A stretch of 64,000 bases of DNA from Fuerstiella sp. Its GTDB lineage: Bacteria > Planctomycetota > Planctomycetia > Planctomycetales > Planctomycetaceae. Made by a program: the position numbers and the translations under genes. Each line of letters starts with the position of its first letter. The first letter of the stretch is position 1. The notes beneath the pieces are model-generated. The model had not been told where the DNA came from, ran no database searches, and worked only from the letters and a program-made list of their open reading frames with translations. The DNA lies in contig JAKVAZ010000008.1 of NCBI GenBank assembly GCA_022447225.1, positions 260,643 through 324,642 on the forward strand, in the 5' to 3' direction. Of this stretch, positions 18,381-45,200 are shown piece by piece.

Positions 18381-18650
18381 GATAACCCCTTTCGTCCGGA
18401 ACAGGAAAGCACAGCACACCCTATGACGGATCACGTCAGTTGGCAATCCCGGAACTGATTCAGCAGCGTATGGAACGATCCACGTTCGAACGGACAGCGG
18501 GAACATGAAGCCATTTGCTGCGGGCTGCTCAGGCAGACGCGGCTGAACGGATGGGACGACTGTTCACTGACACTAACACTGAGGTGGTTGATGTCACAAC
18601 GGAATCTGGCGGCGAATGGAAAACAGCTGACGTGACGTAAAGTCAAAGAG

Positions 18651-18743
18651 CGGAAGCGGATGGGAATCGAACCCACCAGACCAGGCAAGCTGATCTCACC
18701 GGTTTTGAAGACCGGGACGGACACCAGTACCGCAAACGCTTCC
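18651..18743 (-). tRNA. selC: tRNA-Sec (anticodon TCA)
   Basis: On the minus strand the gene starts GGAAGCG and ends CGCTTCC plus discriminator G. The anticodon stem-loop is CCGGT-CTTCAAA-ACCGG, with TCA at 18706-18708 (complement), so it reads UGA. A long variable arm (AGATCAG-CTTGC-CTGGTCT, 7 bp with one G-T pair) and a T loop TTCGATT follow. The acceptor plus T stem total 13 bp, read here as 7+6 because the eighth acceptor pair would be T-C; bacterial tRNA-Sec is usually drawn as 8+5. The terminal CCA is not encoded. The long arm, UCA anticodon and 13-bp helix distinguish it from a UGA suppressor or tRNA-Ser. No selA, selB or selD is in the window. Confidence 0.93.
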
Positions 18744-19287
18744 GAGTGACCACATCATCAGACAATGAAATTAACTCATCAACACATCAACATTTACTGC
18801 GCAGCAGACTCTTTTTGCCTCCAATGGAGGTGTCCTGACAGGTTGAACCCGGTGGACACGGTATTGCGACTCGATTCAGAAGCAGAAACACAGCTCCAAG
18901 CTTACCGATGACTGAGCACCTGTCCAGCATGCACTCAACAAAAGCGCAGGGGAACGAACACAGATCGATAGTCGTTACACACAACTGCCGCCGCAGCGGT
19001 TACCGCTGTTCCAAGGCCTGTGGTCAACAAATGGACAGCATGATGCTTCATCGTTAGTCTGCTTAAACCAGTCAGACTCGGCGAAAAAAACGTCCACACA
19101 TCGAAGGTTGTGTGGTGTATGACCAGAGAACCTGGGTGCGGACAATCGACGTTGCTGCTGTTATCTCAAGCACTCCTCGAGCGTTTTCTGCGCGGACATT
19201 TTCAGCCGATGCAAGCGTGCCCGTAAGGAAACGGGCTGGCCGGAATGGTTGTATTTTTCGCTGTCCTGTTTTTTTGCTGAGCACAAA
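18744..19287. other. 544-bp gap upstream of tRNA-Sec and the MetE-like gene
   Basis: No convincing gene. A cysteine-containing minus ORF at 18787-18984 has no ribosome site and no family resemblance. Promoters for the tRNA (minus) and for the MetE-like gene (plus) are expected here. Confidence 0.4.
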
Positions 19288-44003: not shown

Positions 44004-44486
44004 TCAACCGATCGGGGATTCGGTGATTCCCTGAGAAATCGACTTCGCATCAGGACTCGCTAAGCAAGGTCCGTTGCCGCTGTCCAGATACTGCTGAATT
44101 GCGCACCTGATTTCATCGCGTACACGACGAAAAACTTTCATCTTATCTTCGTCGGTACCGCCGGCGTCTGCCGGGTCGTCAAACGGCCAGTGCAGGGTCT
44201 GCGTTGCTCCGTGAAAGACCGGACACAACTCTTTGGCGTTGTCACAAACGGTGATCACCAGATCAAATGACTGGTCCCGGAACGGATCCAGTGATTTGCT
44301 TGTGTTCCCGGAGATGTCGATGTTCAGTTCGGCAATCGCGAGAATGGCCAGACGGTGTACATACCCGGACGGCTTCGAGCCGGCCGACTCGGACTGCCAG
44401 TCATCCTTCCCAAGGTGTTCCCATAGCGCTTCAGCCATCTGAGAGCGGCAGGAATTTCCGGTGCAGAGGATCAGGACACGTTTCAT
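44004..44486 (-). CDS. arsC: Thioredoxin-coupled arsenate reductase
   Basis: Reduces arsenate to arsenite in the cytoplasm; low-molecular-weight tyrosine phosphatase fold. 160 residues. The P-loop CTGNSCRS carries Cys8, Cys13 and Arg14. The second pair lies in VITVCDNAKELCPVF (Cys81, Cys88), and DP(A) follows in HWPFDDPADA. The Cys triad plus the extra Cys matches the thioredoxin-linked type. The gene follows the aquaporin gene by nine bases, so the two are co-transcribed. The C-terminal ~25 residues are longer than usual. Confidence 0.92.
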   Translation of the reverse strand: MKRVLILCTGNSCRSQMAEALWEHLGKDDWQSESAGSKPSGYVHRLAILAIAELNIDISGNTSKSLDPFRDQSFDLVITVCDNAKELCPVFHGATQTLHWPFDDPADAGGTDEDKMKVFRRVRDEIRCAIQQYLDSGNGPCLASPDAKSISQGITESPIG

Positions 44487-44495
44487 GAAACAGTT

Positions 44496-45200
44496 TCAGG
44501 TTGATGAAGTATTTTCACAGACGGTGTCTGTGGCAGACGTATCGCCGTCACAGCAACCGGCAGGCTGCACGCAGCGGCAACCGGGTACGGCCAGCGCCGC
44601 GCCAAACACCGGCGCGGCAATGTAAATCCAGAGATGGTTCAGGTTGCCGCTGACGATTGCCGGAGCAATTGACCGTGCGGGATTCATGGAGGCGCCGCAG
44701 ATCGGTCCAGCAAACATCGCTTCCAGAGCAACCACGCCTCCGATCGCTGCCCCGGCCATGATCCCCTTCTCTTTGGCTCCGGTCGATACGTTCAGGATCA
44801 CGAACATCAGTATGAATGTGAGCACAACTTCAAAGACAAACGTCTGCCACCACGCTCCGGCCGGCAATGTCGCTCCCAGATAGGGATGATCAGGAAACAG
44901 CATTCTCAGCAGGGCACTGGCGGCCACCGCTCCGCTCAGTTGAGCGATCAAATACGGAACAACGTCACGAACGTGAAAACGATTTGTGAGGCAGAAGGCG
45001 ATTGTGACGGCCGGATTGATGTGCGCTCCCGACACGTCGCCGACTGCGTAAATCATGGCCATCACGACCAGTCCGAACGTCAGCGCAATCCCCACATGAG
45101 TGATTGTTTGCTCAGAGACATCGTTGACGATGATTGCACCGGTCCCGGCAAACACCAGACAGAATGTACCAATGGCCTCAGCTGTGTACTTCTTATTCAT
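44496..45200 (-). CDS. MIP-family aquaporin/aquaglyceroporin linked to arsC, with a Cys-rich tail
   Basis: Membrane channel of 234 residues with six helices and both NPA boxes (NPA at 62-64 in GAHINPAV, and at 173-175 in GASMNPARS). Adjacent to arsC, it is likely to release arsenite made by ArsC, as the AqpS channel does in some bacterial ars operons. The C-terminal tail (from Cys208) carries C-x-C, CC and a further Cys within 21 residues, unusual for a plain aquaporin and suggestive of thiol binding of arsenite or metal (inference). No arsR gene is seen within the window upstream. The start is ATG with GGTGAA upstream. Confidence 0.9.
   Translation of the reverse strand: MNKKYTAEAIGTFCLVFAGTGAIIVNDVSEQTITHVGIALTFGLVVMAMIYAVGDVSGAHINPAVTIAFCLTNRFHVRDVVPYLIAQLSGAVAASALLRMLFPDHPYLGATLPAGAWWQTFVFEVVLTFILMFVILNVSTGAKEKGIMAGAAIGGVVALEAMFAGPICGASMNPARSIAPAIVSGNLNHLWIYIAAPVFGAALAVPGCRCVQPAGCCDGDTSATDTVCENTSST

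Follow-up and report, generated by a model that had tools for sequence, protein, structure and literature searches.

A planctomycete selenocysteine tRNA gene with a predicted 7+6 acceptor/T-stem helix, and the selenocysteine-decoding genes of its genome

Organisms that use selenocysteine (Sec) are a minority among bacteria overall. The textbook bacterial tRNA-Sec has an acceptor stem of eight pairs and a T stem of five, and it is in this 8+5 form that reviews and detection tools draw it, as far as the accessible sections of PMC5330540 and PMC7609411 go. The deviation reported in the accessible part of the Secmarker paper is a 12-bp (7+5) tRNA-Sec in some bacteria (PMC5330540), and a 6-bp D stem with a 4-nt loop is given as the basis of SelA recognition in the corresponding part of PMC7609411. 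In planctomycetes the Sec trait has already been published for P1, P2, G. obscuriglobus and I. pallida; the available text describes an fmdB selenoprotein of the UGA form in P2, which has both Sec and Cys forms, and is silent on tRNA-Sec folds (PMC4807772, in part). Deiodinase-like bacterial selenoproteins have been reported from the Sargasso Sea (PMC1088965, in part). Our searches of open-access papers, in which the term '7/6' is unsearchable, brought up no account of a 7+6 tRNA-Sec; subscription papers were mostly outside the scope of the search and a description may exist in print.

The window analysed here is a stretch of 64,000 nucleotides (C8:260643-324642) from a genome of 5.43 Mb in 33 contigs (completeness 97.03). 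Its protein domains included PSCyt1 (Planctomycete cytochrome C), PSCyt2, PSD1 and DUF1501, which backed the original prediction of a planctomycete-like chromosome. ARAGORN found a single tRNA in the window, a tRNA-SeC with anticodon TCA at 18650-18743 on the minus strand. The Sec covariance model of Rfam (RF01852) matched 18652-18743 of the same strand over model positions 1-91 of 91 and scored 70.8 bits (gathering score 47; E 1.7e-12). A genome-wide search with this model revealed 12 matches, of which the gene in the window was the only one above the gathering score; the remaining 11 scored 31.1-44.8 bits and are presumably other tRNAs. The minimum free energy (MFE) fold had an energy of -39.6 kcal/mol and an anticodon stem of 5 bp. 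The features of the gene, together with the Sec machinery genes discussed below, are collected in Table 1. ARAGORN, Rfam and the MFE fold bore out what had first been read from the letters: the coordinates, the anticodon loop, the variable arm, the helix of 13 bp and the mismatch of U8 with C66. On this evidence the element is almost certainly a real gene and the single tRNA-Sec of this planctomycete.

Table 1. Features of the tRNA-Sec gene (window coordinates) and location of the Sec machinery genes (contig C1)
Feature	Position	Strand	Basis
tRNA-Sec (selC) gene, positions 1-92 + G73	18651..18743	-	ARAGORN, Rfam, parse, fold
UCA anticodon within 7-nt CUUCAAA loop	18706..18708	-	ARAGORN, Rfam, fold
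Acceptor stem, 7 bp, 5' strand (3' strand 18652-18658)	18737..18743	-	parse, fold
Base 8 (U), unpaired in MFE fold; opposite C66 in textbook 8+5 drawing	18736	-	parse, fold
T arm, 6-bp stem (18672-18677 with 18659-18664)	18659..18677	-	parse, fold
Outermost T-stem pair, base 48 (G) with base 66 (C)	18677 with 18659	-	parse, fold
Long variable arm, 7 bp, 5-nt loop	18678..18696	-	MFE fold
D arm, 6 pairs, one bulged nucleotide, 4-nt loop UGGU	18717..18733	-	Rfam, MFE fold
Discriminator G73	18651	-	
SelB	C1:356682-358535		347.8 bits, NCBIfam cut-off 242.25
SelA	C1:358597-359937		508.3 bits, NCBIfam cut-off 267.9
SelD domain	C1:361202-361996		232.8 bits, cut-off 125 (TIGR00476)

In its UCA anticodon, long variable arm, 13-bp helix and G73 the gene resembled the bacterial selC of RF01852, and its D arm had the six pairs and 4-nt loop associated with SelA recognition. 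It differed from bacterial selC in dividing the helix as 7+6 and not 8+5, and in that CCA was not encoded, the tail reading GCTC. Compared with the 7+5 tRNA-Sec described in the accessible text of PMC5330540, a 7-bp acceptor stem is common to both, and the six-pair T stem found here brings the total to 13 bp.

The setting of the gene was compared by blastn (E 1e-8) in 29 loci (L023-L051). The flanks matched those of one close relative (L050) and the other loci matched at the tRNA itself and nowhere else, which points to no linked partner. A search of 18500-19260 for a sigma-70-like promoter was negative, a result of little weight because shuffled sequences yield only 0.4 matches on average. 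Within the window, 27 candidates spanning a TGA were inspected by eye for selenoproteins, and none had a convincing redox context; the pair at 44004-45200 appeared as two adjacent ORFs in the same frame.

A search for SelA, SelB and SelD revealed all three to be encoded in the genome and to score above the NCBIfam cut-offs. They formed one cluster (L022:4671-10300) in which selB, selA and selD were adjacent with no intervening gene. SelD was the C-terminal half of a 752-aa fusion (L022:8042-10300, plus strand, contig C1) whose N-terminal half was a pyridine-nucleotide oxidoreductase domain matching TIGR03169. The whole fusion also matched TIGR04369, 'oxidoreductase/SelD-related fusion protein' (fusion_not_SelD), at 432.4 bits, which is below its cut-off of 700. 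The tRNA had been described as unlinked from its machinery, and within the limits of a 33-contig assembly this held, with the sel cluster on contig C1 and the tRNA on contig C8. Judged by sequence, the Sec-decoding trait is complete and ordinary in kind. As in the planctomycetes of PMC4807772, the full set of Sec-insertion genes was present; in the part of that paper available, the operon legend adds a gene with a transglutaminase core, unlike the adjacent selB, selA and selD found here.

The genome was screened for in-frame UGA codons in three protein families, PF00384, PF00578 and PF02627, the last of which had no match in the genome. An in-frame TGA was found in one of the four PF00384 (molybdopterin family) matches, a FwdB/FmdB, and in three of the 19 PF00578 (AhpC/TSA family) matches, each time within a redox motif that we take to hold the catalytic residue in proteins of this family. 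The FwdB/FmdB gene (L085:1009-2346, minus strand, contig C21) encodes 445 aa and scored 498.2 bits with TIGR03129 (cut-off 327.8). Its UGA is codon 116, in the context TSL-U-HGPT, and the aligned position in two solved chains is a Cys (8rja) and an X residue (9sfi, deposited as 'Molybdopterin oxidoreductase'). The others were a BCP-like peroxiredoxin of 177 aa (PKAFTGG-U-TKEC), a thioredoxin-fold protein (YG-U-VNC) and a deiodinase-like protein of 457 aa with the UGA in CLT-U-PPF (L303:695-2065, minus strand; G000:C10:238000-241500). The last matched Pfam T4_deiodinase (PF00837) at residues 37-169 with 29.3 bits (cut-off 27), slightly less than its AhpC-TSA score of 31.4 bits, and its top solved chain was a type III iodothyronine deiodinase (E 5.7e-5). 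It resembles the Sargasso Sea proteins described in the accessible part of PMC1088965 in being a bacterial member of the iodothyronine deiodinase family PF00837 with a predicted Sec, a likeness at the level of the family. By eye its N-terminus was signal-peptide-like, and a long region lay outside the family match. With these four predicted genes, each carrying its UGA in a redox or metal-binding motif, the expectation that UGA is read as Sec at some sites gained candidates, and the genome likely encodes at least four selenoproteins, a number that is a lower bound because just three families were screened.

The UGA of FwdB was kept in all 29 close-clade FwdB loci read. Codons +7 to +10 past the UGA, which make up the 5' side and loop of a predicted hairpin, read GCC GCC CAG TTG with one GCT. 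Their mean normalised synonymous entropy was 0.027, below that of every other window among 57 four-codon windows; across the 214 usable codons the mean was 0.706. All 28 loci compared for the hairpin (L260 left out) shared the loop AGUU, and the only departures from its seven pairs were a single G/A at the first and a single G/G at the fourth. This low synonymous variation, together with the kept UGA, is evidence for a putative bacterial SECIS element in FwdB. When stability was compared with that of 150 control TGAs from the window, the FwdB hairpin (-14.9) ranked in about the top 5%, as did that of the thioredoxin-fold gene (-15.8; 3 of 150 controls equally stable). The hairpin of the deiodinase-like gene (-10.8) fell between the top 10% and 25%, and that of the BCP-like gene (-7.2) was unremarkable, 61 of the 150 controls being equally stable.

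Among the matches listed, at least 30 of the 170 genomes of the order had one TGA in the close FwdB clade (at least 70% identity). A tRNA-Sec was present in 26 of these 30 genomes versus 33 of the 140 others, again among the FwdB matches listed; the Fisher value of this association, 1.2e-10, is uncorrected for relatedness and overstates the evidence because related sequences are not independent. In four UGA-FwdB genomes (G019, G057, G113 and G130) relaxing the filters still gave no tRNA-Sec above the gathering score, perhaps through assembly gaps or loss of the tRNA. Conversely, 33 genomes had a tRNA-Sec yet no close-clade UGA-FwdB among the matches listed. More distant FwdB paralogues among these matches contained one TGA, its position unplaced, in G051, G053, G087 and G160, and TAG or TAA in G060, G142 and G143; since TAG and TAA occur there too, some of the in-frame stops in distant paralogues are noise. 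At E 1e-30 the UGA form was the sole FwdB match in this genome, as also in both other genomes of the genus, unlike P2 with its Sec and Cys forms (PMC4807772, in part). Since the sole match carries the UGA, the formylmethanofuran dehydrogenase of this organism, and with it that step of C1 metabolism, may depend on selenium.

The junction between acceptor and T stems was analysed with a parser written for this work. Base 8 is the eighth from the 5' end, base 48 lies just before the 5-bp T stem and base 66 is the eighth from the 3' end of the stem; these labels are specific to this analysis. In the window's gene U8 was opposite C66, which can pair with G48 preceding the T stem, and neither the sequence nor the MFE fold gave an eighth acceptor pair with a 5-bp T stem. 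A tRNA-Sec was found in 59 of the 170 genomes of the order. The 59 copies examined from relatives in the order included one, L081, that could not be parsed, its match running to a contig end; all 58 others (54 distinct sequences) had the 7+6 pattern, with C66 and G48 in every case and either U8 (49) or A8 (9). The MFE fold and these relatives thus agree with the original reading of the split as 7+6 rather than 8+5, and we consider it probable that the window's tRNA-Sec holds its 13-bp helix in this way, C66 pairing with G48 and base 8 being free.

Outside the order the pattern was mixed. From the same class 62 copies were picked from the best-scoring matches listed, all of which were parsed. 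Family f101 (n=19) had 16 genes of the 8+5 form, two 7+6 and one compatible with either; f5 (n=12) had ten 8+5 and two 7+6; f2 (n=11) had four 8+5 and seven 7+6, one of them (L309) by a G-U wobble; all four genes of f3 were compatible with either form; and the other families (n=16) had 15 8+5 and one 7+6. A sample of 49 copies from other classes of the phylum (L086-L114, L343-L362), likewise picked from the best-scoring matches listed and all parsed, had 31 with neither pair, ten with either, seven 8+5 and one 7+6. In 29 of these 49, G8 was opposite G66, so that neither junction pair was possible.

A broad cross-bacterial sample was drawn as 117 loci among the matches listed in public genomes, and is biased, the pattern having required CTTCAAA and GGTTCGANTCC. 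Of these, 104 were parsed; some of the 13 unparsed loci are perhaps chance matches to the pattern. The parsed genes comprised 32 with neither pair, 24 8+5, 20 7+6, 19 with either and nine with a 12-bp helix. By record title 14 of the 20 7+6 genes were actinobacterial, for example from Mycobacterium, Streptomyces and Corynebacterium. Others were from planctomycetes (two), Methylobacterium/Sabulicella (two; genera that we take to be alphaproteobacterial) and Terriglobia (one, L235, by a G-U wobble). With 20 of 104 parsed genes of this form, 7+6 is not unique to planctomycetes. Nor is it an actinobacterial rule, as at least seven actinobacterial loci differed (L160, L161, L166, L176, L197, L200 and L224). 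The enterobacterium Atlantibacter (L194) had the textbook form with C8-G66.

When the parsed genes with a 13-bp helix were considered together, C66 occurred with G48 in 101 of 101, of which 59 were the window's gene and its order. A66 occurred with G48 in 39 genes, with A48 in 22 and with T48 in one. In f101 the 16 8+5 genes had A48 and A66 and the two 7+6 genes G48 and C66; the difference on both sides supports a sixth T pair. Outside f101 G48 was nearly constant, so the variation lay mostly at bases 66 and 8. We infer from this that the choice of partner lies with base 66 and that the conserved quantity is the 13-bp length. The 7+6 form was fixed in the copies of the order seen and recurred in Actinomycetota and elsewhere, and SelA and SelB would presumably tolerate a moved junction. 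On balance we lean, by a modest degree, towards bacterial tRNA-Sec being a switchable family in which A66-U8 or G66-C8 gives 8+5 and C66-G48 gives 7+6, always with 13 bp, and in which SelA and SelB would have to read the total helix length rather than the position of the junction. The genes with neither pair tolerate a mismatch at this layer, which weakens the claim that the pair is essential.

The split could also be one of drawing convention, the 8/66 layer acting as an eighth acceptor layer with a non-canonical pair and base 48 unpaired, so that the molecule is effectively 8+5. Because many bacteria have neither junction pair (32 of 104 in the broad sample and 31 of 49 in other planctomycete classes, 29 of these with G8/G66), the helix evidently tolerates a mismatch there. 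The sixth T pair of the order is moreover an invariant G-C in all 54 distinct sequences and so offers no covariation, and in 11 of the 101 C66 genes base 8 is G and C66 could pair either way. Set against this are the constant company of G48 and C66, though a single order supplies 59 of those 101 genes and G48 is frequent in any case, the joint difference of bases 48 and 66 in f101, and the pairing of 48 with 66 in the MFE fold. We regard an effective 8+5 form as unlikely and favour a genuine sixth T pair.

Doubts of a different kind concern the tRNA and the UGA codons themselves. The gene might be a relic or a spurious match, the Sec model having scored a class II (Ser-like) tRNA or an opal suppressor with no link to Sec use. 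Weak RF01852 matches did occur in the same genome (31.1-44.8 bits) and, reaching 46.7 bits, in four genomes where nothing passed the threshold, no sel gene was among the ORFs listed around the tRNA, and its flanks were shared with one of 29 compared loci. The score of 70.8 bits is nevertheless well separated from the 44.8 of the next match, the 13-bp helix, six-pair D stem with 4-nt loop and G73 are those of a tRNA-Sec, and the gene is present in 59 of the order's 170 genomes. The encoded SelA, SelB and SelD and the four UGA genes argue strongly against a relic, which we consider extremely improbable. Sequencing errors or pseudogenes in place of Sec codons are scarcely more credible: the assembly is a draft and some distant FwdB paralogues elsewhere contain TAG or TAA, but the UGA was present in 29 of 29 close FwdB loci of different genomes, followed by a hairpin with the lowest synonymous variation, and in each of the four proteins the UGA falls inside a motif for redox chemistry or metal binding.

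Taking the tRNA as a working tRNA-Sec with a 7+6 helix, homology to the known bacterial route suggests that SerRS would charge it with serine, that SelA would turn the serine into Sec with selenophosphate from SelD, and that SelB would bring the Sec-tRNA to UGA codons that have a hairpin (bSECIS) downstream. The predicted targets are FwdB/FmdB, the BCP-like peroxiredoxin, the thioredoxin-fold protein (UVNC) and the deiodinase-like protein (CLTUPPF). In the real molecule C66 would pair with G48 and leave base 8 unpaired, completing the 13-bp helix as 7+6 in a form that SelA and SelB would presumably accept; charging, Sec insertion, this pair and its acceptance are all inferred by us from the genes and folds described above. 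In a natural 7+6 helix the total of 13 bp is uncoupled from the place of the junction. A few base swaps could therefore be used to test how tRNA-Sec is distinguished from tRNA-Ser by SelA, SelB and SerRS, and this variant of the tRNA fold merits a proper survey.

Across the phylum, 250 of the 392 genomes sampled had an Rfam match to tRNA-Sec, and CCA was unencoded in the tRNA-Sec of many relatives as well. One genome, G164, contained two identical copies (L060 and L061), both no more than 50 bases from a contig end, which are possibly one gene duplicated by the assembly.
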